The notes under the pieces are model-generated. The model made no database searches, was not told the DNA's origin, and was given only the letters and a program-made list of their open reading frames with translations. A program made the position numbers and the translations under genes. A stretch of DNA of 64,000 nt from Planococcus kocurii (lineage in GTDB: Bacteria > Bacillota > Bacilli > Bacillales_A > Planococcaceae): NCBI RefSeq assembly GCF_001465835.2, contig NZ_CP013661.2, positions 1,116,001 to 1,180,000 of the forward strand, given 5' to 3'. The stretch's first letter is position 1, and each line of letters opens with the position of its first letter. Positions 1,832 to 25,225 of the stretch are shown piece after piece.

Positions 1832-3148
1832 TTACGTATTCAACTTTTTCGAATGACTGTGGAACATCACTTGCTTGATTTGCTGGTGATCCATTTCTAC
1901 GATGGTCCACGAATTTGTTGACTCTGTAGAAGTAGCGCCGGTTTTGACATCTCCCGGGCTCTTGAAATGAATCCAGCCACCAATCGTATCGATGTCGTCG
2001 CTTTCATCAAAGGTTATACCAAAACGCTCTTCCAGGTCTTTCAATAACACGCGACCATTGATCACGTATTGATTGTCGCTGACTTTGTTAATGTCGGCCA
2101 CTTCGTCCGCATCAAATTCATCTCGAATTTCACCGACGATTTCTTCTAAAATATCTTCCATAGTAATCATACCGGCCGTCCCCCCGTATTCGTCCGCAAC
2201 GAGGGCAATATGAACGCGCGCATTTTGCATAATCAATAACGCGTTTTGCAAGCCTGTCGCTTCAAACACAGTCGGCAGTTCCAGGACAAAATCCTCGAGC
2301 TGCCATTCGCGTCCTGCGACAATATGCGGCAGCATTTTCTTGGCACTAACAAATCCAAGAATTTTGTCTTTGTCGCCATCTTCGGTTACAGGGTAACGTG
2401 TGTAATTGTTTTCATCTAAAATCTCGATAATTTCAGCAAGCGGCATGTCTTTATCTAGCGTGACGAGTTCGGTACGCGGCACCATAATGTCTTTAGCTAC
2501 ACGTTCATCAAACGAAAACACATTTTCCATATACGAAAGTTCGGTTTCATTGATCGCTCCGCCTTCAAAGCTCTGAACCATAACAATTTTCAACTCTTCT
2601 TCTGAATACGCTTGATCGTGACCTGCGGGTTTAACACCGAAGATTCTCAGCAACACGCGAGCCGCCCCGTTCAATGCCCAGATAAAAGGTTTCATAACCT
2701 TTCCGAACCAATAAAGCGGGGGTGCCAATAATAACGACATCTTTTCCGCAAATTGAATGGCCAAAGTTTTTGGCGCCATTTCACCGACAACGACGTGCAA
2801 ATAAGTCACAAGTAAAAACGCGATGGCGTAGGAAGCCGTTGAGGCCACTGCGTCTGACACAGCAAAAAATTCAAAGATTGGGTACATTAATCGTTCAATG
2901 GTCGGTTTCCCGAGCGCTCCCAGTCCAAGTGCTGTGACGGTAATTCCGAGCTGACAGGCAGATAAATAATAATCCAAGTCGCTCGCTACTTTTTTCGCAG
3001 TTACCGCTTTTTTATTGCCTTCTGCAATCAGTTGATCGAGCCGCGACATGCGAATTTTAACAATCGCGAATTCCGAGCCAACGAAAAATGCCGTCAAGGC
3101 AATTAATAGTACTAATAAAACTAAATTCAATAAGGTTACTATGTCCAC
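1832..3148 (-). CDS. CNNM/CorC-family transporter (hemolysin family), full length
   Basis: A 438-residue protein with the complete family layout: DUF21 transmembrane domain (1 to ~190), two CBS domains (~205-330) and a C-terminal CorC_HlyC domain (~345-425, with IGGWIHF). Members export Mg2+ or related divalent cations from the cytosol across the plasma membrane; the exact ion is not readable from sequence. It starts at GTG 3148, preceded by AGGGA at 6 bp inside a small hairpin. It lies 37 bp downstream of the MerR gene and 18 bp before the start-proximal end of the shorter paralogue, which suggests one operon that arose by tandem duplication. DUF21 identity between the two copies is high. 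Confidence 0.92.
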   Translation of the reverse strand: MDIVTLLNLVLLVLLIALTAFFVGSEFAIVKIRMSRLDQLIAEGNKKAVTAKKVASDLDYYLSACQLGITVTALGLGALGKPTIERLMYPIFEFFAVSDAVASTASYAIAFLLVTYLHVVVGEMAPKTLAIQFAEKMSLLLAPPLYWFGKVMKPFIWALNGAARVLLRIFGVKPAGHDQAYSEEELKIVMVQSFEGGAINETELSYMENVFSFDERVAKDIMVPRTELVTLDKDMPLAEIIEILDENNYTRYPVTEDGDKDKILGFVSAKKMLPHIVAGREWQLEDFVLELPTVFEATGLQNALLIMQNARVHIALVADEYGGTAGMITMEDILEEIVGEIRDEFDADEVADINKVSDNQYVINGRVLLKDLEERFGITFDESDDIDTIGGWIHFKSPGDVKTGATSTESTNSWTIVEMDHQQIKQVMFHSHSKKLNT

Positions 3149-3152
3149 GTGT

Positions 3153-3178
3153 CTTCCCTGTAAAAGGGATTCACCTCC
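3153..3178 (-). promoter_or_regulatory. Leader hairpin covering the ribosome site of the first CNNM gene
   Basis: GGAGGTGAAT is followed by CCCT-TTTAC-AGGG and, 6 bp after AGGGA, by GTG GAC. It is closely parallel to the element at 1787-1812 in front of the paralogue, although the loops differ. Preservation of the pairing with changed loop sequence argues that the hairpin matters, but two copies are thin evidence. Confidence 0.45.
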
Positions 3179-3185
3179 AAGTAAA

Positions 3186-3572
3186 TTACAGCAACGCGAT
3201 CAAAGCAGTTATAGCTGCTAACTGGTGCTCAAGCGCTTTGCTGATGTGTAGCTTCACGGGGCTTGGGGCATCTTTTAATTGCTCCTCCAAGCGCGTGATT
3301 TTTCGTTGCAGGCATTCGAATTCTTCATATACTTCATCGACAAGAAGTGTTGTTTCTGAAGTCTCTTGTGTAGCAAGCACGTCTTTAATTTCCGAAATCG
3401 ACAGGCGCTGTTTTTTCAAAACTTGTATACGTTTGAGCGTCTGCAGGCTAGACGCCGGATAAAGCCGGTAATTGGTTTTAGTTCGCTGACTTTGTAGCAA
3501 TCCCGATACCGTATAATAATCGATGGTTCTCGTTGATACCCCACTCAATTTTGCAATCTCTCCGATTTTCAT
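3186..3572 (-). CDS. MerR-family transcriptional regulator
   Basis: A 128-residue regulator. The winged helix-turn-helix begins at residue 1 (IGEIAKLSGVSTRTIDYY) and is followed by the YRLYP wing typical of MerR proteins, a long coiled-coil dimerisation helix (~75-108) and a short C-terminal tail with no Cys motif or ligand-binding domain. The ribosome site AAGGA lies 5 bp before the ATG. As the first gene upstream of two CNNM transporters and on the same strand, it probably controls them and itself. A dyad at 3614-3631 is a candidate operator. The inducer is unknown. Confidence 0.88.
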   Translation of the reverse strand: MKIGEIAKLSGVSTRTIDYYTVSGLLQSQRTKTNYRLYPASSLQTLKRIQVLKKQRLSISEIKDVLATQETSETTLLVDEVYEEFECLQRKITRLEEQLKDAPSPVKLHISKALEHQLAAITALIALL

Positions 3573-3613
3573 TAAGTCCTTCCCAATGCAGACACCCCCT
3601 TATTTGACTCACA

Positions 3614-3631
3614 TTAACCTAACGTGGTTAA
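3614..3631. promoter_or_regulatory. Candidate MerR operator (18-bp dyad)
   Basis: TTAACC-TAACGT-GGTTAA is a dyad with perfect 6-bp arms and a 6-bp spacer, 42 bp upstream of the MerR start codon. Its position suits autoregulation; assignment to this protein is inference. Confidence 0.4.
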
Positions 3632-3851
3632 CTTCCGATCTGATCCATTGCACGAAAGCAATTTCTCTTAGTAATAAAAAATAATAGCACATTTCGATAA
3701 AAAGCATACAGTCTAACGTTCTGGTTTTGGACAGAAATAGACATCTTTTTGAGTAAGCGACATGATATCGACATGATTTGGAACTGTGGCTGTGACTAGT
3801 GACTAACTGGCTATCGCTTTGTGTGACGGGCTGCATACGTTTGTTCCATTT

Positions 3852-3887
3852 GATTCACTTGATTCACTTGATTCACTTGATTCACTT
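3852..3887. repeat. Four tandem copies of a 9-bp repeat
   Basis: GATTCACTT is repeated four times head to tail (3852, 3861, 3870, 3879). It lies in the 550-bp gap between the MerR gene and the small gene at 4125, next to phased array 2. This is a simple slippage-prone microsatellite. Confidence 0.9.
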
Positions 3888-3914
3888 GGAACAGTCTCGT
3901 TTTTTGGGCGATTT

Positions 3915-4027
3915 GCAAACAAATCAGCCTATCCCGCAAACAACACAATAAATAGCGCAAACAACACGCTCGCTCCTGCAAACAACATAGCGAGTTGCGC
4001 AAACAAACTACTCATTCCTGCAAACAA
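3915..4027 (-). repeat. 21-bp phased word array 2 (GCAAACAA x6)
   Basis: The word GCAAACAA occurs at 3915, 3936, 3957, 3978, 3999 and 4020: six perfect copies at exactly 21 bp. The 13-bp spacers are dissimilar. All copies are preceded by a pyrimidine and followed by A or C. The array lies ~55 bp beyond the terminator (4084-4115) of the leftward gene at 4125. The word and period are the same as in array 1 (66-136). Confidence 0.92.
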
Positions 4028-21955: not shown

Positions 21956-23053
21956 ATGACAGGCTTAACGTTAGTTAATATTAAAAAAGAGTACGAAAAA
22001 GGCGTTGTTTCCGTACAAGATTTCAACTTAGAAATTCGCGATAAAGAATTTTTGGTATTGGTGGGTCCTTCGGGATGTGGGAAATCTACAACGCTGCGGA
22101 TGATTGCAGGGCTCGAAGACATCACTGAAGGCGATTTGTTTATCGGTGACAAACGTGTCAATGATGTCTCGCCAAAAGACCGTGACATCGCAATGGTGTT
22201 CCAAAACTACGCATTGTATCCGCACATGACTGTCTATGAAAATATGGCGTTTAGTTTAAAGCTGCGCAAAATGAAAAAAGACGAGATTAAAGCACGAGTT
22301 GCCAATGCTTCTAAAATTTTAGGCTTGGATGATTACTTAAACCGCAAACCAAAAGCGTTGTCTGGCGGGCAACGTCAACGTGTTGCACTTGGTCGTGCCA
22401 TTGTTCGCGACGCCAAGGTCTTTTTAATGGATGAACCTTTATCAAACTTGGATGCAAAATTGCGTGTGCAAATGCGTGCGGAAATTCAGAAGTTACATCG
22501 TCGCTTGCAAACCACTACGGTATACGTAACACATGATCAAACTGAAGCCATGACAATGGCAACGCGTTTAGTGGTGATGAAAGATGGCTTTATCCAACAA
22601 GTCGGTACACCTAAAGAAGTATACGACTTGCCAGAAAATATGTTTGTGGGTGGATTTATTGGGTCCCCATCAATGAACTTCTTGCGTGGCAAACTCGTTG
22701 GCAACCAATTTATCATGGGCGACATTTCTATTTTCATCCCCGATGGCAAATTGAACGTTCTCAAAGACAAAGGCTACGACAACAAAGAGTTAATCCTTGG
22801 CATTCGTCCAGAAGATATTCACGACGAACCGCTATTTTTAGAACATTCGCCACAGACCAAACTACAAGCCTATATTGATGTCGCTGAACTGATGGGTGCA
22901 GAAATTATTTTGTACTCGAAAGTCAACGACCAAGATTTTGTGGCGCGAGTTGATTCACGTTTTAATGTGGAAGCTGATTCGACGATTGACATGGCATTCG
23001 ATATGAATAAAGCCCATTTCTTCGACAGTGAAACGGAATTACGTATTCGTTAA
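21956..23053 (+). CDS. msmX: MsmX/UgpC-type sugar ABC transporter ATPase
   Basis: A 365-residue ATPase with Walker [10 protein letters not shown], signature LSGGQRQR, Walker [14 protein letters not shown] and H-loop THDQTEAM, followed by the C-terminal TOBE/regulatory domain typical of CUT1 ATPases. In Bacillales one such MsmX protein energises several sugar permeases. The MalFG permease of this window has no ATPase gene of its own, so this is its likely partner. GGAGG lies 7 bp before the ATG. Its own terminator has been split by an IS. Confidence 0.92.
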
Positions 23054-23072: not shown

Positions 23073-23086
23073 AAAACCCTCACCGA
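23073..23086 (+). terminator. Left half of msmX terminator, interrupted by IS
   Basis: AAAACCCTCACCGA here is perfectly complementary to TCGGTGAGGGTTTT at 24384-24397 on the far side of the IS. Removing the IS and one copy of the TAC duplication restores a 14-bp stem with a 7-nt loop and a T-run, 19 bp after the msmX stop. Confidence 0.85.
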
Positions 23087-23128
23087 GTACTGAACTGACC
23101 CGGTAATATGAGACACAAGAAAAAACAC

Positions 23129-23980
23129 CTAGGCTGCCATTGTCCGATATTCAATCGGGGAATGGCAGTTTAATTTTTGGAACGGTCGGATGTAGTTGTA
23201 ATAATACATGTAATCCTCTACTTTTTGTTGTACAATGTCATTGGTTAGATGCACCCTTTCCTGGGTGTAGAATTCTTCCGACTTTAGCGAGGAGTGGAAG
23301 GATTCGATGACGGCGTTATCAAAGCAGTTTCCTTTGCGGGACATGCTGGTGATAATGCCGTTTTCTTTTGCCGTCACTTGAAACACACGAGATTTATACT
23401 GGGCGCCCTGATCACTGTGTAAAATGGTTCCGGCCGTCTTCCGTTTCCGGCAAGCCATTTCAAGTGTATCCACCACAAGCTGGGCATTTTGTGTATCACT
23501 GACTTTGTAGGCAATCACTTCGTTGTTGTATAAATCCAGAATCGTTGACAAGTAAAGCATGCTTTCCCCGAAGGGAAGATACGTAATATCTGTCACCCAC
23601 TTTTGATTAGGGGCATCCGCTTTAAAATTTTGCTCTAACAGATTCGGAACCACCAAATTGCTTTCACCAGCCATCTTCTTGGCCCGTTTCGGTTTGACCC
23701 GACACTGGCTGTTGTATTTCTGCATGATTCGCTGCACCGTTTTTCGATCAACGATCGTGCCACTATTTTTCAATAAGCCTTTCACCGTTCGGTGACCTAC
23801 CCGGAACTTCAGTTGTTCACAAATCGCGATAATCTCTTTCTCCAATTCTGTTTTCTCATACTTCTTCAGACGCCACCGATAGTAAGTAGGGCGTGGGACG
23901 CCCATGCATTCACAGATCGTTTTAATGGAATACTTCTTTTTAAAACAATCCACCAGTTCTACGAAGAGGGCCGGTTCCAC
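23129..23980 (-). CDS. IS3-family transposase OrfB (DDE integrase domain)
   Basis: A 283-residue protein with an N-terminal HTH_21 region (~25-75) and an rve integrase core with all three catalytic residues: WVTDITYL (D), LHSDQGAQY (D) and NCFDNAVIESFHSSLK (E). It overlaps orfA by 22 bp in the -1 frame. The overlap contains A3G5 (minus strand, 23980-23987), where programmed -1 slippage would yield the OrfAB transposase. The GTG at 23980 is its only nominal start. Confidence 0.93.
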   Translation of the reverse strand: MEPALFVELVDCFKKKYSIKTICECMGVPRPTYYRWRLKKYEKTELEKEIIAICEQLKFRVGHRTVKGLLKNSGTIVDRKTVQRIMQKYNSQCRVKPKRAKKMAGESNLVVPNLLEQNFKADAPNQKWVTDITYLPFGESMLYLSTILDLYNNEVIAYKVSDTQNAQLVVDTLEMACRKRKTAGTILHSDQGAQYKSRVFQVTAKENGIITSMSRKGNCFDNAVIESFHSSLKSEEFYTQERVHLTNDIVQQKVEDYMYYYNYIRPFQKLNCHSPIEYRTMAA

Positions 23981-24291
23981 CCCCTTTCCAGTTCCCGATA
24001 CTTTCCCATCAGTTCTTCTTTGATTTCGTAATACAGCACTTTTCTTTTCAATTCCTCCACTTCGCTCAACTCCGCGTTGTAACTATATTGTCTTCCTCCA
24101 GGTTGAGCCAGTCGGAATTCTTCTCCCTCTCGATGCCATTTCATCCACGTCTTGATCTGTGTTCTGTTCTTGATTCCATGAATCGCCATGATTTCGGCAT
24201 TGGTATAGTCACCACTAAGCTTCATCCGGATCACCTCTAACTTAATTTCCTCCGGATAAAATTGTTTTGTCGATCCCTTTTTTGAACCCAT
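23959..24291 (-). CDS. IS3-family transposase OrfA (helix-turn-helix)
   Basis: A 110-residue HTH_Tnp_1-type protein (FYPEEIKLEVIRMKLSGDYTNAEIMAIHGIKNRTQIKTW) with a C-terminal leucine-zipper-like helix (SEVEELKRKVLYYEIKEEL), as usual for IS3 OrfA. It binds the IS ends. The start at ATG 24291 is preceded by GGAAGTG and gives the usual OrfA length; an upstream ATG at 24360 lies too close to the IS end. Confidence 0.9.
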   Translation of the reverse strand: MGSKKGSTKQFYPEEIKLEVIRMKLSGDYTNAEIMAIHGIKNRTQIKTWMKWHREGEEFRLAQPGGRQYSYNAELSEVEELKRKVLYYEIKEELMGKYRELERGWNRPSS

Positions 24292-24436
24292 ACAGAAAAA
24301 CACTTCCAGTTTGTCGTTATAACTACATACGACGGTGGGGGTGTTTTTTCCTTGTCTCATTTTATTGGGTCACTCTATACTTGTCGGTGAGGGTTTTGAT
24401 TATGTTTCTAAAACTGGCTGTCCTAAATTTAATGAA

Positions 24437-24466
24437 TGAAAAAAAGCTACCCCATAGGGCAGCTTT
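24437..24466 (-). terminator. Rho-independent terminator after hydrolase gene
   Basis: Stem around AAAAGCT/AGCTTTT with an inner CCC/GGG pair, then a T-run on the minus strand just beyond the stop at 24470. Confidence 0.85.
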
Positions 24467-24469
24467 TGG

Positions 24470-25111
24470 TTAAAAGTTTTTGATTCCGGCGATGATTTGC
24501 TTTAACGCATCAATGGATTTGAGCGGATCGGTTTCACAATCCAATCGGTGGTTGATGTCTGGGAGTAATGTCGATTCTAAATTCGGGTTTGTTTTTAACA
24601 ATTCAAACGCACCGGCTGAGTAGTAGCGATCTTTGTCACCGATGTAGCATTGTGCTGGGTTTTTGCTGTTGACCATCGTGTTTAATACTTGTTCTTGGTT
24701 TAATAGCGGCGTCACCCATACTGCTTTGGCATCGCTAAATTCCGGACGCAGCATTTCCGCTCCCATTGCAATGGTGCCTAGTGACTTGCCGACGATGTAA
24801 AACGTTTGATAGTTTCTTCCTTTGAGTACTTCTCTTATGACTAAACGCACATCGTGAATAATGGCCTCGCTCAACTCTTCCATGGTAAAGCCATCATACG
24901 CATTGCTTGTGTATTGATAGTTCACACGCAATACATCGTAGTATTCATTTAAAAACATTTCTTCTGCAAAGTGAAATAACGGACTTTTCGTTGTATAGCC
25001 AGCACCTGGTAAAAAGATGGCTAATTTTTTTGTGTAGTCTTCAGTTAACATCACGGTATAAGGCACTTCAATCCCTTTGTAACCTGTGACTTTGTTGTTG
25101 ATTGCTTTCAT
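24470..25111 (-). CDS. Alpha/beta-hydrolase family protein
   Basis: A 213-residue cytosolic alpha/beta hydrolase. The nucleophile elbow is GKSLG (Ser near ~108), an Asp lies in the CYIGDKDRYYS segment (~160) and the His in DINHRLD (~190). GAGYTTKSPLFHF near residue 35 fits the oxyanion-side loop. The substrate is unknown. I chose the ATG at 25111 because AGGAG lies 8 bp upstream; a GTG three codons earlier sits too close to it. It is monocistronic between the IS and a divergent acetyltransferase gene. Confidence 0.8.
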   Translation of the reverse strand: MKAINNKVTGYKGIEVPYTVMLTEDYTKKLAIFLPGAGYTTKSPLFHFAEEMFLNEYYDVLRVNYQYTSNAYDGFTMEELSEAIIHDVRLVIREVLKGRNYQTFYIVGKSLGTIAMGAEMLRPEFSDAKAVWVTPLLNQEQVLNTMVNSKNPAQCYIGDKDRYYSAGAFELLKTNPNLESTLLPDINHRLDCETDPLKSIDALKQIIAGIKNF

Positions 25112-25225
25112 AAATCCCACTCCTGTCTTTCTTTAGTATAAAGAATATTCCATCAGTTTACGAACAATTTTTCAAATTGGCTGTGATACAATCGACTTAC
25201 TATGATTCTTTCGGGAGGGTACCCC

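Follow-up and report, generated by a model that had tools for sequence, protein, structure and literature searches.

The window analyzed here is the whole 64,000-nucleotide stretch of the Planococcus kocurii genome (contig NZ_CP013661.2) in which an IS3-family element of 1,287 bp, with its transposase on the minus strand, lies between two TAC copies downstream of a gene for an MsmX/UgpC-type ABC transporter ATPase (msmX). The features of the locus, in window positions, are as follows.

21956-23053, plus strand: MsmX/UgpC-type ABC transporter ATPase, owner of the split terminator (NF008653, 496.6 bits)
23073-23086: left arm of the split terminator, AAAACCCTCACCGA (from the sequence and the fold of the joined site)
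23088-23090: target duplication TAC, copy 1, within the hairpin loop (from the sequence)
23091-24377, minus strand: IS3-family IS, 1287 bp, with ends TGAACTGACCC... and ...GGGTCACTCTA (from the NF033516 match, the ends and TAC)
23129-23980, minus strand: OrfB, DDE transposase with D131, D190 and E226 in DD35E spacing, in the -1 frame relative to OrfA
23130-23172, plus strand: terminator-like hairpin carried by the IS where the transposase gene ends (3'), facing msmX transcription (-26.6 kcal/mol, z -6.3, 0 of 200 shuffles)
23959-24291, minus strand: OrfA, helix-turn-helix, with a proposed ATG start inside a longer open frame that reaches 24360
24296-24348, both strands: terminator-like hairpin carried by the IS on the 5' side of the transposase (plus strand -20.8 kcal/mol, z -3.9, 0 of 200 shuffles; minus strand -15.4 kcal/mol, z -2.3, 7 of 200)
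24378-24380: target duplication TAC, copy 2 (from the sequence)
24384-24397: right arm of the split terminator, TCGGTGAGGGTTTT (from the sequence and the fold of the joined site)
24470-25120, minus strand: alpha/beta hydrolase gene, convergent (26.6 bits, slightly below the cut-off of 27)

The element splits the msmX terminator exactly. Its surroundings read CACCGAG-TAC-[IS]-TAC-TTGTCGGTG, and deletion in silico of the IS together with one TAC restored a perfect 14-bp stem with the loop GTACTTG, which holds the TAC. The rejoined hairpin had a folding energy of -24.1 kcal/mol (z -6.9), a value equalled by none of 200 shuffles. The original prediction of an exact insertion into the terminator loop was confirmed, including the arms, the TAC duplication, the 14-bp stem and the 7-nt loop. 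The T-run of the split terminator on the msmX side is just TTTT, and the hydrolase gene has a terminator-like hairpin of its own at 24442-24467.

The window transposase matched NF033516 with 298 bits (cut-off 160) and rve at 3.4e-27, and the terminal inverted repeats TGAACTGACCC / GGGTCACTCTA and the 3-bp duplication are hallmarks of the IS3 family, whose duplications measure 3-4 bp. Residues D131, D190 and E226 were invariant among the four OrfBs compared. The open frames of OrfA and OrfB stand in a -1 relation and overlap at GGAAAGGGGGTGG, frameshifting between them being predicted, and the start codon of OrfA was placed on the basis of an upstream GGAAGTG. This is the single copy of its kind found in the P. 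kocurii genome. When the window IS was compared with E. coli, nothing matched, and no match on plasmids covered 80% of the IS.

The region downstream of msmX-like genes was then surveyed for the empty site at 29 loci from other Planococcus genomes, with one genome per species, which makes this a comparison of sister species rather than sister strains. Six of these loci (L158, L159, L161, L162, L164, and L165) carry an uninterrupted hairpin with the same core and the hydrolase alongside, as exemplified by L162 (CCACCGAGTATTTCTCGGTGGTTTTTT), where the hairpin CCACCGAGTATTTCTCGGTGG is followed by T's. At two others (L160 and L163) the hydrolase is nearby and the terminator has a different sequence. 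The empty site that had been proposed as a check is therefore present, as an intact terminator at the orthologous place, in six sister Planococcus species. This indicates that the terminator is older than the insertion and that the IS entered a pre-existing loop.

Relatives of the window IS were collected by a search of 150 related genomes and a scan of 84,980 species, the latter yielding 65 loci with OrfB identities from 91% to about 30%. Thirty-eight of them were scored singly, 10 Aquibacillus contig ends were paired into five sites, and 17 loci were excluded: 11 whose ends were unresolved or masked (L056, L076, L077, L079, L082, L084, L085, L087, L089, L091, and L094), two at a contig edge (L060 and L083), two distant ones (L092 and L095), and two contig ends that lacked a matching partner (L037 and L071). 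Partial copies from the 150-genome search were not counted, nor were L004 and L005, which by eye are in hairpins. Minimum free energy folding with the duplication forced into an apical loop gave 30 of 44 sites and was rejected, since it over-counted helices (null 34% at 4 pairs and 15% at 12 pairs) and did not discriminate. A stem-alignment score and a free-axis score were used instead. With the former, 37 of the 44 resolved sites exceeded the 95th percentile and 28 the 99th percentile of a null of 3,660 random flank positions.

The free-axis score lets the hairpin axis move within 8 nt of the duplication and takes as nulls 2,604 intergenic positions from the same loci. It was applied to three sets. 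Set A is the window clade, with 46 sites (the 44 and two more of group G021); set B brings together eleven further IS150-like groups of those genomes, with 39 sites; set C holds 10 sites of the IS3/IS2 subgroup (G161b, G157b, and E. coli IS3 and IS2). The IS3 groups that accompany the window clade in its genomes had first been intended as negative controls, but most proved to be in hairpins and became set B. Of the 60 loci collected for these groups, 49 were scored, and 11 (G156a, G157a, G155b, G168c, and L156) were left out because their ends were unclear or a partner was lacking; G156a, G155b, and G168c were inspected later. The split between sets B and C was made after the flanks had been inspected and was not blind, and a tree later supported it for G161b and G157b. 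The 95th percentile was exceeded at 33/46 sites of set A (17/46 above the 99th; Mann-Whitney p 1e-18), at 29/39 of set B (10/39 above the 99th; p 4e-17), and at 1/10 of set C (0/10 above the 99th).

A blind test was performed with the score fixed beforehand, by searching the E. coli IS150 OrfB against 398 Bacilli genomes. IS150-like OrfBs at E<=1e-40 occur in 186 of these genomes, targeting having been tested in only some such groups. The blind set comprised 13 groups with at least two copies among the matches listed, with ends set by comparison between copies, and 57 of its 60 loci were scored (L262, L268, and L272 were skipped). The 95th percentile was exceeded at 39/57 sites and the 99th at 23/57 (1,811 intergenic nulls; Mann-Whitney p 4e-22), and 31 of the 39 passing sites lie on the axis within 3 nt. 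In 12 of the 13 groups, one site or more exceeds the 95th percentile. The exception is G308 (L290-L292), whose three scored copies all sit in a single imperfect palindrome; the same genome has 19 copies of this palindrome that are uninterrupted. This target looks like a REP-like palindrome and, by analogy, a counterpart to the target of IS1397.

Pooling the three sets, 101 of 142 sites pass the hairpin threshold where about 7 would be expected, and in 78 of these 101 the duplication is no more than 3 nt from the hairpin axis. When the left flank of one site was paired with the right flank of another, the pass rate fell to 6.5% (set A), 8.3% (set B), and 7.5% (blind set). That the window holds a one-off coincidence, as the solitary copy in its genome might by itself suggest, is already contradicted by these counts and retains a practically negligible probability. 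The original prediction had regarded copies in non-palindromic sites as the sign of such a coincidence; the proportions above the 95th percentile in all three sets favour targeting instead, and the copies in other genomes were found in terminators with unrelated sequences far above chance.

Insertion at random, followed by selection that purges all but harmless copies at gene ends, would also place sites mostly between genes and near stop codons, as is the case here. We consider it very improbable, since the null is itself intergenic and drawn from the same loci, and the position of the axis within 3 nt in most passing sites is hard to reconcile with it. It is also opposed by the IS3-subgroup copies within two of the same genomes, of which 1/8 exceed the 95th and 0/8 the 99th percentile, and by a weaker second IS3-subgroup control, in which 2/20 pass, just 6/20 having a target site duplication (TSD) and both passing sites being among those six. 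The second control drew on 20 loci and L126-L128, of which L306 and L310 lacked ends and L127 contained N. With so few controls (10) and such poorly resolved ends (6/20 with a TSD), the contrast with the IS3 subgroup is suggestive, and the second control is weak in both directions.

The threshold was failed by 13/46 sites in set A, 10/39 in set B, and 18/57 in the blind set, or 41/142 overall. Some of these are gapped hairpins that the score missed (L048, which passes the stem-alignment score, and L248, by eye), and others have no hairpin (L064, L249, and L284). Flank exchange is one way in which failing sites can arise. Two Metabacillus halosaccharovorans copies (L150 and L151, group G155) lie on one contig, on opposite strands and about 2 Mb apart, and their own flanks give neither a TSD nor a hairpin. 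Once their right flanks are swapped, one site shows the duplication GTA and an imperfect stem of 19 positions (score 33.7), the other the duplication AAG and a perfect stem of 21 bp (score 49). The simplest reading of these sequences is an inversion of about 2 Mb through recombination between two copies, each of which would once have been inserted in a terminator. Among the 33 passing sites of set A, 9 have the duplication 4 to 7.5 nt off the axis, so that it falls in the 3' arm and not in the loop; most of these 9 belong to the A. pseudofirmus/B. massiliglaciei clade. Separately, in Erysipelothrix inopinata (L143-L145, group G168b) two of three insertions lie at the foot of a complete hairpin, possibly a variant target geometry.

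Averaging the 85 sites of sets A and B revealed no sequence motif, just a symmetric composition: an A-tract around -13 to -20, a C-rich arm followed by a G-rich one, A/T where the duplication lies, and a T-tract around +13 to +20. AAAA on the left together with TTTT on the right was found at 32/46 sites in set A, 31/39 in set B, and 2/10 in set C, against 12% of nulls. Neighbouring genes at 77 sites, taken from open reading frames and not from annotation, were convergent in 31 cases, co-directional in 40, and divergent in 6, and the median distance from the facing stop codon to the IS, likewise based on open reading frames, was 39 nt (quartiles 21 and 138). The orientation of the IS relative to the T-run showed no bias at the 85 sites (the T-run was longer at 37, the A-run at 29, and the two were equal at 19; p 0.39). 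Composition, gene-end position, and the absence of orientation bias together suggest that most targets are intrinsic terminators, used regardless of direction. A different palindrome was observed in Aquibacillus halophilus (L047, around 2550-3945), where a window-clade copy lies within a long, imperfect palindrome whose core is of the CTTTCCGCGGG type; by eye the palindrome resembles a repeat found after msmX-like genes in Planococcus L169, L175, and L176.

These targets bear on how the choice might be made. Targeting coupled to transcription, with RNA polymerase pausing at terminators or an RNA hairpin exposing the DNA, would fit the resemblance of most targets to real terminators with gene ends facing them, but the lack of orientation bias and the use of a REP-like palindrome make it improbable. 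Alternatively, the transposase may read the shape or composition of the duplex (a phased A-tract, GC arms, a flexible AT centre, and a T-tract) and not an extruded hairpin, terminators merely sharing that shape. The averaged target does have such a symmetric composition, whereas the three scored sites of G308 and L047 are in long imperfect palindromes without AAAA/TTTT tracts, and we regard this explanation as a serious one, if rather doubtful. REP-like targets devoid of A/T tracts favour pairing over tracts, and for the hairpin preference itself both an extruded cruciform and a symmetric duplex shape are possible means of recognition.

We hold it highly probable, from the sequences compared, that the window IS belongs to a broad branch of the IS3 family, the IS150-like elements, and that the transposase of this branch prefers hairpin-forming palindromes, mostly intrinsic terminators. 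The original suggestion that the element may recognise terminator hairpins is supported, and the trait is wider than proposed, extending over many IS150-like groups rather than one element. A tree of 45 OrfBs placed two non-targeting groups with E. coli IS3 in a clade of their own (support 100/100) and grouped E. coli IS150 with five groups of set B (support 100/97). No supported fork unites the window clade with IS150, so a single origin of the trait is possible; IS2 and two decayed long-branch rows had no firm place.

For E. coli IS150, 12 of the 40 listed records were examined, and hok or mok was annotated nearby in 10 of them, with similar flanks in the other 2. The K-12 copy adjoins mokA/sokA. 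Thirteen copies (L187 and L191-L202), plasmid copies being left out, correspond to 7 distinct sites, which repeatedly adjoin different hok loci (hokA, hokB, mokC, and hokE). The duplication falls in the hairpin arm at 5 of 6 folded sites, unlike that of the window IS, which is in the loop, and four have an end of the GGGGC(C/T)TT type. Apart from the annotated sokA, we take these hairpins to be Sok RNAs. One listed copy (H50) overlaps the gene rbsR, and IS150 is known to insert into genes in laboratory evolution, both of which count against the targeting reading. Given the homology of hok loci, a possible selection for hok inactivation, and the rbsR copy, the E. coli sites are non-independent and provide a lead only.

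The two hairpins carried by the window IS were not listed as terminators by a simple scan of the window, probably because their stems contain mismatches. Of 23 IS150-like elements, 22 carry terminator-like hairpins at the 5' end, 21 at the 3' end, and 20 at both ends, and of two IS3-subgroup elements scanned one had weak 5' hairpins and one had none, both counts being without a shuffled control. Their presence at both ends in 20/23 elements suggests that the split terminator is probably replaced. Within 24291-24348, the proposed ribosome site of OrfA (GGAGGTG in relatives) falls inside the 5'-end hairpin, where transcripts coming from outside could hide it, and hiding of the ribosome site in such transcripts is known from IS10 and IS50. 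Separately, three Planococcus genomes (L016, L024, and L025) retain in the same intergenic gap, around 1501-1597, just the IS 5'-end hairpin of ~75-100 bp, shortly past the stop codon, and in L025 it carries a paired change from GTCG..CGAC to GCCG..CGGC. This remnant looks like an IS hairpin adopted as a host terminator.

Members of the IS3 family transpose by copy-out/paste-in via an excised IS circle. We envisage that the transposase and the excised circle capture target DNA that is two-fold symmetric and hairpin-forming, and that the ends would be joined with a stagger of 3 bp, usually on the axis and hence in the loop, and for some groups about 6 nt aside, in the stem. The host terminator would be cut in two, and the IS hairpins at both edges would end transcription from either neighbour, which may keep the cost to the host low and shield the transposase gene from read-through. 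The gene-end positions and the IS-borne hairpins would be consistent with a safe-harbour purpose. A broader view appears plausible to us, though we lean slightly against it: hairpin-directed choice may be basal to the IS150-like half of the IS3 family as a whole. In Bacilli, terminators would then act as safe harbours throughout the genome, while REP-like palindromes and Sok-type RNAs would be local variants, and the end terminators would have co-evolved to replace the broken ones.

Comparable target choice has been described in other elements. IS1397 and ISKpn1 of the IS3 family, as well as ISPsy8, ISPa11, ISPpu9/10, and ISRm19/22, insert in palindromic extragenic REP DNA, for which the transposase was deemed responsible (PMC1525189). 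The likeness lies in the palindromic extragenic target and in the IS3-family members on both sides; however, the REP-targeting ISs use one repeated sequence family (REP/PU), whereas the targets of the window clade and its relatives are mostly terminators with no common sequence. The window target does not belong to a repeated palindrome family but is a gene-end terminator conserved between species, and the targets of the relatives share no motif. IS1272 (IS1182 family) likewise has an inverted-repeat structure as its target, which it replaces in a structure-dependent manner for which a cruciform model was proposed (PMC5678879). It has a transposase of another family and replaces the stem-loop with no TSD, while at IS150-like sites both arms are kept with a TSD of 3-5 bp. 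Group IIC introns also use intrinsic terminators as landing sites (PMC3522654), but they are retroelements that land downstream of the terminator, guided by pairing to short exon motifs, and not inside the hairpin as the window IS with its DDE transposase does. Our literature search, with ISfinder and most subscription papers outside its scope, found no account of terminator-targeting IS3 elements.

Target choice by insertion sequences is usually described as near-random or bound to short sequences, and Tn7 is known for a safe-harbour strategy. If our reading is true, the existence of a common group of ISs that read structure and land in terminators would account for the ability of these elements to multiply while doing little harm. 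It would be a further safe-harbour strategy beside those of Tn7 and group IIC introns, and would also provide a transposase that could be used to insert DNA into designed hairpins. Split terminator arms would serve as a ledger of IS-mediated rearrangements.
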